Source: Erysipelotrichaceae bacterium
GTDB lineage: Bacteria > Bacillota_I > Bacilli_A > Erysipelotrichales > Erysipelotrichaceae
DNA: 64,000 nucleotides
Direction: 5' to 3'
NCBI GenBank assembly: GCA_017431225.1
Contig: JAFRLM010000022.1
Span: 62,001-126,000 of the forward strand
The position numbers and the translations under genes are program-made. This document shows positions 36,829 to 47,564 of the stretch, piece after piece (position 1 is the first letter of the stretch; every line of letters starts with the position of its first letter). The notes below the pieces were generated by a model. That model made no database searches. It saw only the letters and a list, made by a program, of their open reading frames with translations, and was not told where the DNA came from.

Positions 36829-37037
36829 AGATTATGACTCCTAACATATATAAGACAATTAATAAGTACCACATTATCGTATTATAAATCAATAATCTTG
36901 TATGTAATAAACGGAGGAAAATTAACCTGAAAACGGGATAAAAAACTAGATAAAATCTATCAAAATACTTGAAAAACCCCAAATATAATATACAAGAGCC
37001 ATTAAAAATAACTAATATTGTTTGAAAAAAATATAAC

Positions 37038-37066
37038 TTGCATAAATTAAGACGTAGGACTATTAT
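37038..37066 (+). promoter_or_regulatory. Promoter of the fructosamine-type operon
   Basis: TTGCAT (37038-37043), 17-base spacer, TATTAT (37061-37066); transcript start near 37073. The rest of the 323-base divergent gap (36829-37151) is AT-rich, with no gene. Confidence 0.5.
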
Positions 37067-37081
37067 GAAGATAAGTGAGGA

Positions 37082-37124
37082 AGATCACGACACAGACGTA
37101 CCGGGAGAAACGCCTTCGTGATCT
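37082..37124 (+). promoter_or_regulatory. Hairpin in the APC permease 5' leader
   Basis: AGATCACGA (37082-37090) pairs perfectly with TCGTGATCT (37116-37124) around a 25-base loop, within the predicted leader and 17 bases before AGGAGGAG. Function unknown; it may position or guard the ribosome site. Confidence 0.4.
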
Positions 37125-37151
37125 CCGAAACATCATATTAGGAGGAGTTAT

Positions 37152-38498
37152 ATGGAAACTCAAAACAAGAAAGAGCTCGGCAGAAAACTAGGCTTAGGGG
37201 CAGTTATCGCGCTGGGCGTCGGTACCACTGTAGGTTCAGGTATCTTTTCATCGCTTTCTGAAGTTGCCAACGCTTCAGGAAGCATGTTGTTCCTGTTTCT
37301 AGCCTTCATCATCGGCGGTCTGCTGCAGATCCCGGCAAACTTCTGTTACTCGGAGCTGGCTTCGGCATATCCGGAAGACGGCGGCCAGTACGTTTATTTC
37401 CGCGAAGCCGGTTCCAAGATGCTGGCTTTCCTGTGCGGCTGGATCTCGATCCTCGCGACAGACCCGCCGTCCATTTCGATCATGGCTCTGGCGATCGTCA
37501 ACCATCTGGCGTTCTTCGTCCCGATGAGCAACCTGACTTTGAAAATCGTTGCGGTCATCTTCGTCCTGGTCTTCATGTTCCTGCATCTCAGATCCGTTGA
37601 GGGCGGCGGTGCTTTCCAGACGGTTATCACAGCGTTCAAGATCATCCCGTTCGCTCTGATCATCGGCATCGGCCTCTTCAACCTCAACTCCCACCTGTTA
37701 TTATCGAATGCGCCTCTGGCGGGCTTCGGCAAATCTCTCGGTCTGACAGCCCTGATCGCCGGTGTCGCCGGTACGACCTGGTCTTATGACGGTATGGGTG
37801 CTGCCTGTTACATGTCCGGTGAGATCAAGGACCCGCATAAGAATATGCCCAGAGGCCTGATCCTGACAGCGATCATCGTTCTGGCTCTCTACGGCGGCCT
37901 GACCTTCGTTGCTTCCGGTCTTCTGACGATCGATGAGATCGCCGCTTCCGAAGCTCCGATCGCTCTGATGGCTTCCAAACTGCCGGTTATTGGCAATATC
38001 GCCGGTGTCGCAGTTGCAGTCATGGCGATCATCGTCGTCCTCGGCTCTCTTTCTTCCTGTATCCTGTTCCAGCCCCGTATCGAATACGCAATGGCGAAAG
38101 ACAATCTGTTCTTCAAACAGTTCGGCTATGTTCATCCGAAATGGGAGACTCCGTATTTCTCGATCATCGTTCAGTGTGCTCTCGGTATCATCCTGATCTT
38201 CGCGTCTAACCTGGCGAGCCTGTTAGGTTACTTCACAATGATCGCGCTGACCAAGAACGCTCTGACGTTCGGTACGATCTTCGTCCTCCGCAGAAAAGGC
38301 GAAGCCGGCGGTTACAAGCCGACATACAAGTGCCCGGGCGGACTGCTCATGCCGATCATCGCGATCTTCATGACCTGCACCCTGATCTACGGCGAGATCA
38401 CTTATGCACCGATCCCGTCCCTGATCTGCGCAGCCCTGACATTCATTACCGGCGTCCCGGCATACCTCTTCTTCAAGAAGCAGGCTGAACAGGCGTAA
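37152..38498 (+). CDS. APC-family amino acid/fructosamine permease
   Basis: 448 residues with about 12 membrane helices. The first has the APC signature [24 protein letters not shown] (broken helix 1, about 16-39), followed by [21 protein letters not shown] (about 67-87). The family imports amino acids, polyamines or conjugates with H+ or Na+. E. coli FrlA, the fructoselysine importer, belongs to it, and the genes that follow are frl-type kinases and a deglycase, so uptake of a glycated amino acid is the likely role (inference). Strong AGGAGGAG ribosome site. Confidence 0.85.
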
Positions 38499-45174: not shown

Positions 45175-45195
45175 GTTCTTTCAGAGGATCCGGCT

Positions 45196-46041
45196 TTATC
45201 GTTCCGGGATGAAGGTGCGCAGATAGTCGACTGTCTGCTTATGGGCGGCATGGGGATCGAACCAGTAGATCGAGTCGTTGATCTCGAGGTCGACGATCGA
45301 ACTGTAATCATGTCTTTCCAGCGTCTCGATATACTCCTTCAGAGGCAGATTGCCGCTTCCGCAGATCTCGTGATGGGCATCGGAGAAGTGAATGAATCCG
45401 ATCTTTTCCCCGCCGAAGCGTTCGAAATACTGCTCGAGCGTCTCCCCGGCGACATTCATCGCCACGAGGTCGACGCAGACCTTCAGGGCCGGGGAATCCA
45501 CAGCCTTCAGGATCGTTTCGATGTCTCCGATCGTCGTGCAGAGATTGCTTTCGTAAGGCTGCAGCTGTTCCAGCATCATCGTGATGCCTTTCTTCTCCGC
45601 TTCCGCGCAGATGCGGGCGATCGCATCGACGCAGATGTCCATGCTCTGCTGTCTGGGAAGGTCACGGAGACCGGTCCCGGTATTGATGAAAAGACGGTCG
45701 GTGCCGAGTGTCAGCGCGTCATCCATGCTCATCGAGAAGAAGTCGATCGTTCGCTGGACGGTCTTCCTGTTGGGATCGGCGATGCTGTAGGGATATGCCA
45801 GGGTCTCCGGTGTGTAGATGACGAATTTCATGCCGCGGTCTTCGGCTTTCTGACGAAGTTCCTTCAGGAACGCGGCAGCTCCTTCATCGGTATAGTCGAA
45901 ACGGTAAAAATGCGGGATACCGCCCCAGAAGTCGATATTCCGTATCCCGATGGACTGCAGTGAGTCCAGGACATAATCAAATGAGTATTGCTGGTAGGAA
46001 GGGGTCATGACGGCAAAGTCATTCAGGGTTATTTTCTTCAT
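45196..46041 (-). CDS. FrlC-like sugar epimerase/isomerase (paralogue 2)
   Basis: 281 residues from ATG 46041, 8 bases after AAAGG; ATG 46047 would lie only 2 bases from it. TIM-barrel epimerase with IRNIDFWGGIPHFYRF, YTPETLAYPYSI, MLEQLQPYESN (metal Glu), VCVDLVAMN (Asp), GFIHFSDAHHE (His) and SIVDLEINDS (Glu). It is more distant from E. coli FrlC than the 43010 gene. Probably epimerises another ketosamine or sugar phosphate of the same pathway. Transcribed alone against the operon, and divergent from the GntR genes with a 73-base shared gap. Confidence 0.82.
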   Translation of the reverse strand: MKKITLNDFAVMTPSYQQYSFDYVLDSLQSIGIRNIDFWGGIPHFYRFDYTDEGAAAFLKELRQKAEDRGMKFVIYTPETLAYPYSIADPNRKTVQRTIDFFSMSMDDALTLGTDRLFINTGTGLRDLPRQQSMDICVDAIARICAEAEKKGITMMLEQLQPYESNLCTTIGDIETILKAVDSPALKVCVDLVAMNVAGETLEQYFERFGGEKIGFIHFSDAHHEICGSGNLPLKEYIETLERHDYSSIVDLEINDSIYWFDPHAAHKQTVDYLRTFIPER

Positions 46042-46114
46042 ATGCATTTCCTTTTTTTCTTCCTTTACCTATATAATATTGTAAAGCGGCAAACAGTCAC
46101 AAGGATTATTGAAC

Positions 46115-46834
46115 ATGGCAGCAGTTAAGATCTCCCCCGGGAGGGAAGCGATTGAGAAGATCGAGGATTTCATCAAAGTAAACCGTGTAAAAGCGCACAC
46201 CAGGATCCCCTGTGAAAAGGATCTGTGCGAGTTTTGGAATATCAGCCGCTCGACGCTCCGCCAGGCTGTGGATGAACTTGTCGAGAACGGTGTCCTTTAC
46301 CGCATTCCGAACAAAGGCGTCTATGTGGCGGAGCCCCATTATCTGCGTGATATGGCCGGTGTTGCCGCGATGGTCCGTGACCTGCTGGATCAGGGACACA
46401 CGCTTACGAAAGAGATCCTTTCGATGAATGTGATCGAAGCCAGCAAACAGATCTCAAGAAAACTGCGGGTCCGGCTGGGAACAAAAGTGTATGAGATCAT
46501 CAAATGCCGCAAGGTCGACGGCGTGCCCTGCACGATCGAAACGACCTATATGGCCGTCGAACGCTATCCCGGTTTCACGGATTATTACAACGAAAACGCG
46601 TCGATGGATCCGATCTTCGAAGAACATTACGATACGGTCGAGACCTCCGGTACCGAACAGATCAGCGTTGCCTACGCCACGGAAGCGGAAGCCGAGATCC
46701 TGGATATCGAAAGCGGTGCTCCGCTGTTCTTTGCCTCCGGTGTCGCACTGGACCAGAACAAGCAGACCGTCATGTTCTACAAGCAGCTGATCCGTTCCGA
46801 TAAATTCACCTTCGTGTGTACGATAGAAAGCTGA
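46115..46834 (+). CDS. GntR/HutC-type regulator with UTRA domain (1)
   Basis: 239 residues. N-terminal winged HTH of GntR type: HTRIPCEKDLCEFWNISRSTLRQAV, NGVLYRIPNKGVYVAEP (about 28-72). A UTRA ligand domain follows (VYEIIKCRKVDGVPCTIETTYM, FFASGVALDQNKQTVMFYKQLIRSD). E. coli FrlR, repressor of frl, has this architecture. The ligand is probably a phosphorylated ketosamine (inference). AAGG 10 bases before ATG 46115. In operon with a second GntR protein 8 bases later, divergent from the FrlC-like epimerase. Confidence 0.9.
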   Translation: MAAVKISPGREAIEKIEDFIKVNRVKAHTRIPCEKDLCEFWNISRSTLRQAVDELVENGVLYRIPNKGVYVAEPHYLRDMAGVAAMVRDLLDQGHTLTKEILSMNVIEASKQISRKLRVRLGTKVYEIIKCRKVDGVPCTIETTYMAVERYPGFTDYYNENASMDPIFEEHYDTVETSGTEQISVAYATEAEAEILDIESGAPLFFASGVALDQNKQTVMFYKQLIRSDKFTFVCTIES

Positions 46835-46841
46835 GGAAACC

Positions 46842-47564
46842 ATGGCAAAAGCAGAATACAAGATGCCGATCTATCTTCAGCTGCGCGAGCTGATCCGAAA
46901 CAAGATCGAAGAAGGGGAATATATGCCGGGAACGGCGATCCCCTCGGAAAACAAACTGGCCGAGACGTTCGGACTGAACCGGCTTACGATCCGCAACGCC
47001 GTAGATGCTCTGGTCAACGAAGGCCTGCTGCGCCGGGTTCAGGGCAAAGGCGTTTTCGTCGTCGGCAAGAAGAACGAGATCTCGATCGAGGAACATGCCG
47101 GATTTGTCAGCGACTCCTTCAAGAACGATACGAGGCTATCGATCAGGGAACTGCAGAAGACGGAAAGAGCAGCTGGTAACAAATATGCCAATCTGTTCGG
47201 TCTGGAACTGGAGGACGGGATCTACTATATCCGGCAGCTGCATACGATCAACGGCACCGCGACTTCGATCGAAGAGTTCTTCGTACCGAAGGAAGTGCTT
47301 CCTTCCCTGGATTCGGTCAATTCGTCTGTTTTCACGTTTCGCGACATCATGTCCTTCTATGGGATCGACCTCACGAAGATGACGCAGTCGCTCCGGATCG
47401 TCAAGGGCTTTTCCAAGATCCGGAAGATGCTGAATATGCCGGAGGAGGTGGCTCTCTTCCTGCTGGAATGCGATTTCTATAACGAAAAGGGAAGTGTCAT
47501 TGCTCACAGTATCTCCTATATCCGCAGCGATATGCAGACCTTCACCGTCAGTCTGCATAAGTGA
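46842..47564 (+). CDS. GntR/HutC-type regulator with UTRA domain (2)
   Basis: 240 residues. HTH: MPIYLQLRELIRNKIEEGEY, IPSENKLAETFGLNRLTIRNAV, LRRVQGKGVFVVGKK. The UTRA domain runs from about residue 95 (YIRQLHTINGTATSIEEFFV) to the end (SISYIRSDMQTFTVSLHK). Clearly a separate protein from the first GntR, about equal in length but with many differences, so the pair may sense two ligands. GAGGAAACC ribosome site. Confidence 0.9.
   Translation: MAKAEYKMPIYLQLRELIRNKIEEGEYMPGTAIPSENKLAETFGLNRLTIRNAVDALVNEGLLRRVQGKGVFVVGKKNEISIEEHAGFVSDSFKNDTRLSIRELQKTERAAGNKYANLFGLELEDGIYYIRQLHTINGTATSIEEFFVPKEVLPSLDSVNSSVFTFRDIMSFYGIDLTKMTQSLRIVKGFSKIRKMLNMPEEVALFLLECDFYNEKGSVIAHSISYIRSDMQTFTVSLHK

Follow-up and report, generated by a model that had tools for sequence, protein, structure and literature searches.

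The window, a 64,000-nucleotide stretch of contig JAFRLM010000022.1 from the 1.56-Mb draft genome of an Erysipelotrichaceae bacterium, contains at 37152–47564 a cluster encoding an FrlA-type permease, two FrlD-type kinases, FrlC, a SIS deglycase, an esterase, BtpA, the amidohydrolase-family protein Amh2, YjbQ, an FrlC-like protein and two GntR regulators (all coordinates are positions in the window). Profile searches and open reading frames recover every gene named in an earlier reading of the DNA sequence alone (the sequence-only reading), in the order given there. The cluster probably represents an enlarged system for the utilisation of fructosamines (Amadori products). Its features are as follows.

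37152–38498, + strand: frlA, APC permease of FrlA type (best model the fructoselysine transporter NF008466, 513 bits against a cut-off of 800 tuned to E. coli; 52% identity to E. coli FrlA)
38539–38570, no strand assigned: 14-bp hairpin between frlA and frlD1, a possible partial terminator or processing site (consensus match only)
38672–39466, + strand: frlD1, PfkB-family fructosamine kinase of the FrlD1 clade (fructoselysine 6-kinase model NF007321, 327 bits, cut-off 247; 43% identity to E. coli MG1655 FrlD)
39468–40247, + strand: est, alpha/beta-hydrolase esterase of the tributyrin esterase/EstA type, accessory (PF00756, 67 bits, cut-off 22)
40261–41322, + strand: frlB-like SIS deglycase, presumably of GfrF type (closest PDB entries 8glr and 2a3n; 22% identity to E. 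coli FrlB)
41330–41348, no strand assigned: small hairpin in the frlB–btpA gap (consensus match only)
41375–42184, + strand: btpA, BtpA/SgcQ TIM barrel, predicted phosphosugar enzyme (TIGR00259, 224 bits, cut-off 153)
42203–42997, + strand: frlD2, PfkB-family fructosamine kinase, placed by the kinase tree in the FrlD2 clade and linked to amh2-yjbQ (NF007321, 377 bits; 38% identity to E. coli MG1655 FrlD)
43010–43840, + strand: frlC, fructoselysine 3-epimerase (NF007360, 448 bits, cut-off 305; 53% identity to E. coli FrlC)
43840–44709, + strand: amh2, Amidohydro_2 (COG2159-like) TIM barrel (PF04909, 102 bits, cut-off 26)
44706–45134, + strand: yjbQ, UPF0047 protein of a frl-linked subfamily (TIGR00149, 97 bits, cut-off 68; 27% identity to E. 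coli YjbQ)
45145–45174, no strand assigned: 11-bp GC-rich hairpin in the gap between yjbQ and the convergent frlC2, a probable terminator in both directions (hairpin scan)
45196–46047, − strand: frlC2, divergent FrlC-like sugar epimerase/isomerase barrel (PF01261)
46115–46834, + strand: gntR1, GntR/UTRA regulator (29% identity to E. coli FrlR)
46842–47564, + strand: gntR2, GntR/UTRA regulator (family match)

The genes from frlD1 to yjbQ lie on one strand and are separated by 1, 13, 52, 18, 12, −1 and −4 bases; because of this packing, they appear to form a single transcription unit. The frlC, amh2 and yjbQ genes overlap, amh2 and yjbQ by 4 bp. The strong hairpin at 45145–45174 closes the row and sets it apart from the convergent frlC2. 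At the other end, frlA stops 173 bases 5′ of frlD1 with a hairpin in between, and an AGGAGG motif sits closely 5′ of the frlD1 ATG at 38672. The two weaker hairpins, between frlA and frlD1 and between frlB and btpA, could tune the expression of individual segments. An Rfam scan of the window returned only a tRNA and RNase P, with no regulatory RNA inside the cluster, and promoter matches did not exceed those in shuffled sequences. The second FrlC-like epimerase of the sequence-only reading is present but proved divergent (126 bits to NF007360, under the cut-off) and is encoded on the opposite strand.

To follow the cluster across genomes, an Amh2 alignment was scanned against 84,980 species genomes, yielding 288 relatives. 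The best 80 loci of these 288 were analysed, and the neighbourhood counts given here refer to the 79 with an amh2 call. The yjbQ gene lies directly downstream of amh2 in 75 of the 79 loci; directly upstream is frlC in 60 and an FrlD kinase in 14 more. Nearly all loci (76/79) contain an FrlD-type kinase, 54 an SIS gene, though many contigs are short, 53 FrlA, 39 BtpA and 21 the esterase. The clusters span Bacillota, Coriobacteriia and Chloroflexota, and the amh2-yjbQ unit also occurs in cultured isolates, for example Clostridium (Enterocloster) asparagiforme DSM 15981 (L074). Near-identical clusters are found in Erysipelotrichaceae metagenome-assembled genomes (MAGs) from sheep gut and elsewhere (L056, L057). 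In Oscillospiraceae and Lachnospiraceae the recurrent order is frlD2-frlC-amh2-yjbQ-frlA-gntR-frlD1-gntR-(est)-frlB, with variants in Bacillus, Paenibacillus, Vagococcus, Coriobacteriia (Olsenella, Parafannyhessea, Olegusella) and Chloroflexota (Levilinea). FrlC and Amh2 are both too rare in a 392-genome phylum sample for co-occurrence at genome level to inform. The sequence-only reading had proposed an expanded frl-type cluster to which the extra genes belong, and had named their absence from all relatives as the outcome that would point to chance insertion. Across the Amh2-relative loci the opposite was found: the association of amh2 and yjbQ with frlC and FrlD is kept in three phyla, and so the extra enzymes belong to the cluster. 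That unrelated genes entered an frl operon by chance, to which we give next to no probability, is refuted by the same conserved order.

The two kinases are not recent duplicates of one another. In a tree of 136 FrlD-type kinases an FrlD2 clade (support 0.998) stands apart from an FrlD1 clade, and E. coli FrlD is sister to the FrlD2 clade, suggesting that FrlD1 and FrlD2 are ancient paralogues. Members of the FrlD2 clade adjoin frlC-amh2-yjbQ in all three phyla while the FrlD1 clade goes with the deglycase half of the cluster. The two halves can also lie apart: the L066 and L072 genomes have an amh2 locus without an SIS gene and carry a window-type deglycase elsewhere in a frlD1-gntR2-frlB group. 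Because the kinase clades sort by their neighbours and the halves are separated in these genomes, the module consists of two half-operons, each with its own kinase. Two ancient clades also fit an alternative raised in the sequence-only reading, that the cluster feeds two substrates into one deglycase.

The deglycase had been called FrlB-like from sequence. It is an SIS deglycase but not FrlB in the E. coli sense, scoring 49 bits against a cut-off of 430 for the E. coli FrlB model; surveys of fructoselysine users based on that model would overlook this type. Its nearest solved structures, 8glr and 2a3n, are presumably Salmonella GfrF. Nine SIS deglycase-type proteins, E. coli FrlB among them, all share Glu241, His257 (16 residues further on), an RRY motif at 344–346 and Tyr352 (numbering omits the start Met), and from work on FraB the Glu and His are presumably catalytic. 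The enzyme thus looks catalytically competent. In seven clusters of related order a 53–60% identical orthologue of E. coli FrlB fills the deglycase slot beside frlC (Caproiciproducens L080 and L088, Chloroflexota L114–L117 and Bacillus massilionigeriensis L126), which argues that the SIS enzyme was swapped between subfamilies while FrlC, Amh2, YjbQ (and FrlA) remained. Of the evidence from sequence, these orthologues argue most strongly for fructoselysine-like compounds as what the cluster handles. The introduction of PMC12675984 assigns cleavage of fructoselysine 6-phosphate to GfrF; a figure legend in the same paper swaps GfrE and GfrF.

The families of the extra enzymes name no substrate. 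The nearest folds to a predicted Amh2 model (predicted local distance difference test score, pLDDT, 92) are 3irs/BB4693, a protein of unknown function, the hydratase LigJ, LigW/5-carboxyvanillate and dihydroxybenzoate decarboxylases, alpha-amino-beta-carboxymuconate-epsilon-semialdehyde decarboxylase (ACMSD) and the C–C hydrolase LigY. Enzymes of the LigJ/LigW/ACMSD/LigY group are metal-dependent and mostly do not hydrolyse amides. The HxH histidines of Amh2 are kept in 77 and 73 of 80 sequences, and His149 and His184 are conserved. The strand-8 Asp, usually essential in the amidohydrolase superfamily, varies across the family; it is Asn (position 245) in the window protein, as in no fewer than 40 of the 80 sequences, so that the window Amh2 lacks the full hydrolytic set of HxH, two more His and strand-8 Asp. 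Given these folds and this replacement, 'hydrolase' appears to be a family name only for Amh2. A few members alter metal ligands, among them an amh2 from a PTS-type (phosphotransferase system) operon (L055:7892-8743) that lost the HxH motif (DMNVSP); such proteins are possibly non-catalytic or of altered chemistry.

The YjbQ group retains H44, N52, E53, H78 and H95 in 78/78 sequences. YjbQ proteins reportedly show a low, secondary thiamine-phosphate synthase activity (Morett, 2008). A housekeeping role in thiamine synthesis is unlikely here: the host genome has only two YjbQ genes and both are within deglycase loci. There are three separate SIS deglycase loci in this genome, namely the window, a frlD-frlB pair (L043, G000:C9) and L053 (G000:C7), which combines an amino-acid-type ATP-binding cassette (ABC) transporter, an SIS deglycase, yjbQ, amh2 and an FrlD kinase; the second yjbQ is the one in L053. 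The predicted BtpA model (pLDDT 86) resembles phosphate-binding barrels, among them geranylgeranylglyceryl phosphate synthase, 2-keto-3-deoxy-6-phosphogluconate aldolase, ThiE and Rpe, and a PDB sequence search with BtpA found no relative. Its fold looks like a generic phosphate-binding barrel that points to no particular reaction. The esterase groups with short-chain acyl esterases (best solved relatives 4rgy, 2uz0 and 6vh9) and is not core to the cluster, because it is missing from many otherwise complete clusters.

The conserved neighbourhood reaches past 36829–47564, the interval first singled out, into 30862–36828 with the following genes.

35281–36828, − strand: amh3, YtcJ-like amidohydrolase, recurrent neighbour (in 38/79 relative loci)
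33738–35284, − strand: FGGY carbohydrate kinase, frameshifted here (an FGGY kinase is present in 39/79 loci)
30862–33702, + strand: row of FGGY2 kinase, Rpe-like epimerase and class II aldolase/epimerase, an occasional member of the neighbourhood

Compared with the intact L036 copy (about 96% identical DNA), the first FGGY kinase gene carries a two-base duplication that breaks it into two frames; in close relatives the gene is intact. The frameshift represents either a sequencing error or a recent pseudogene. A similar FGGY-rpe-aldolase row comes next after btpA in L066, L072 and L074, which suggests that it forms a sugar-phosphate branch. Genes for NhaC-type Na+/H+ antiporters or MatE proteins recur beside Lachnospiraceae and Oscillospiraceae clusters (L066, L067, L068, L070, L074, L073 and L098), possibly for the export of amines or amino acids.

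We favour, as the probable reading, an enlarged fructosamine utilisation cluster with two kinase entries and an accessory step carried out by Amh2 and YjbQ on a phosphorylated Amadori compound or a by-product of it. The core of this pathway is well supported by its gene content, and the substrates as well as the Amh2–YjbQ reaction are what we infer from sequence. FrlA would import glycated amino acids such as fructoselysine and psicoselysine, probably among others, and FrlC would interconvert C3 epimers. Either the deglycase-linked FrlD1 or the FrlC–Amh2–YjbQ-linked FrlD2 would then phosphorylate C6, and the GfrF-type SIS enzyme would split the 6-phosphate, releasing the amine and a hexose 6-phosphate. 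Amh2 and YjbQ, paired beside a kinase, would most likely take what the deglycase cannot accept unchanged, be it the FrlD2 product or a rearranged by-product, and turn it into a form usable by the deglycase or by glycolysis. BtpA, HAD, FGGY, Rpe and aldolase proteins may form an optional module on the phosphosugar side. Whether Amh2 and YjbQ perform one or more previously undescribed steps of Amadori catabolism fed by FrlD2, so that the physiological place of at least one YjbQ subfamily is the metabolism of phosphorylated fructosamines instead of thiamine synthesis, is in our judgement evenly balanced.

The main rival places the pair off the catabolic route, as damage control that clears reactive by-products of Amadori 6-phosphates (e.g. 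deoxyosone phosphates) or misphosphorylated forms. We consider this possible but rather unlikely. In its favour, the pair behaves as an accessory that depends on the pathway: it accompanies a deglycase together with a kinase or PTS, and many SIS loci do without it. The Amh2 model seems nearer to hydratases and decarboxylases than to amidases, and growth of Salmonella fraB mutants is reported to be inhibited by build-up of an Amadori 6-phosphate (PMC4941530). Such a by-product substrate is nevertheless hypothetical, and the tie to one kinase clade fits an on-path role equally. Doubtful in our view is the proposal of the sequence-only reading that the extra hydrolases act on a more complex Amadori product such as an ester, lactone or aromatic amine adduct. 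The esterase does adjoin frlB in several lineages and the YtcJ-like amidohydrolase is a frequent neighbour, but the esterase is absent from otherwise complete Lachnospiraceae clusters, the fold relatives of Amh2 and the missing strand-8 Asp in roughly half of the family, the window protein included, do not favour hydrolysis, and ordinary fructoselysine is what the FrlB orthologues of this type of cluster suggest. It is still less probable that the cluster serves a non-Amadori sugar and the frl names mislead. In its favour are the accompanying enzymes of general sugar-phosphate metabolism (FGGY kinase, Rpe, class II aldolase and BtpA) and the carbohydrate-type ABC binding proteins of some loci (L128); set against these are amino-acid-type binding proteins in L053 and L130, FrlC and both FrlD proteins above curated cut-offs and FrlB orthologues in synteny.

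No greater probability attaches to an SIS-independent deglycation route in which FrlD2 with Amh2 and YjbQ replaces FrlB, as frlD2-frlC-amh2-yjbQ groups without a nearby SIS gene in L066, L067 and L072 could suggest. Among 13 genomes whose amh2 locus lacked a nearby deglycase-grade SIS gene, 10 carry a full-length SIS deglycase (>380 bits) elsewhere, two of them in a frlD1-gntR2-frlB group, compared with 9 of 295 genomes (3%) in a phylum sample, a baseline that comes from other lineages than the test genomes and is therefore rough. Amh2 and YjbQ as a substitute for the deglycase were ruled out on this count, and the pair likely acts alongside it. Since 15 of 20 independently found SIS loci lack the pair while pair-bearing genomes mostly have a deglycase, amh2-yjbQ looks like an accessory that depends on the pathway, the reverse dependence not holding. 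The rough baseline and these 15 loci weigh against the favoured reading, the latter against any necessity of the pair, as do the following points. No Amh2–YjbQ pair is linked to the operons by which E. coli, B. subtilis and Salmonella use fructosamines. Three genomes (G483, G485 and G487) have the amh2 unit without a full deglycase, all of them draft MAGs with the loci on short contigs. Selecting loci for their resemblance to amh2 of frl loci favours frl-linked members, and the other 208 Amh2 relatives lie outside the census and might have different neighbours. In favour of the reading, identity matrices correlate for amh2-yjbQ (r = 0.90) and amh2-frlD2 (r = 0.87), though these values contain shared species history.

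Gut bacteria feed on glycated amino acids from heated food, compounds from which advanced glycation end products also arise. To our knowledge, the described pathways make do with uptake, a kinase and a deglycase, to which some add an epimerase. The protein families of the cluster and this kind of pathway are known; new is that a second kinase clade has been stably added together with Amh2 and YjbQ, a combination which we did not find described in the open-access literature. There, with subscription papers outside the search, no paper joined YjbQ with fructoselysine, an Amadori gene cluster with an amidohydrolase and fructoselysine, or the YjbQ family with an amidohydrolase and an operon. A known pathway is thus seen to carry an extra two-enzyme unit, apparently with its own kinase paralogue, that is kept in three phyla. 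This gives the YjbQ family a testable metabolic context, bearing on the cell role of YjbQ and on further Amadori chemistry of gut bacteria.

Among known fructosamine systems, the E. coli frlABCD-frlR system for fructoselysine and psicoselysine resembles the window cluster in its FrlA-type permease, FrlC, FrlD-type kinase and GntR/UTRA regulator, but the window deglycase comes from another SIS subfamily and E. coli frl has no second kinase, amh2, yjbQ, btpA, esterase, second epimerase or second regulator. The B. subtilis frlBONMD-frlP system for alpha-glycated amino acids (PMC12632257) follows the same logic of kinase and SIS deglycase; unlike the window, it relies on an ABC importer and a single kinase and lacks an epimerase as well as all the extra enzymes. 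In gut Bacillota, Intestinimonas AF211 likewise uses fructoselysine by kinase and deglycase (AF_00949-00955), here with an ABC importer, and a term search of the text of PMC4697335 finds no amidohydrolase. The seven-gene gfr-type operon of F. prausnitzii is also a gut Bacillota fructosamine operon and differs from the window in being PTS-type; this operon, associated with inflammatory bowel disease, carries one additional gene without homology to Salmonella gfr (PMC12136445). Salmonella gfrABCDEF, a PTS operon for fructoselysine and glucoselysine, shares its presumed GfrF-type deglycase with the window, which has an APC permease and ATP-dependent kinases where gfr has a mannose-family PTS permease, and no PTS genes. 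As described in PMC12675984, gfr is without amh2-yjbQ, whereas gfr-like PTS/SIS operons in relatives (L048 and L055) bear the pair.

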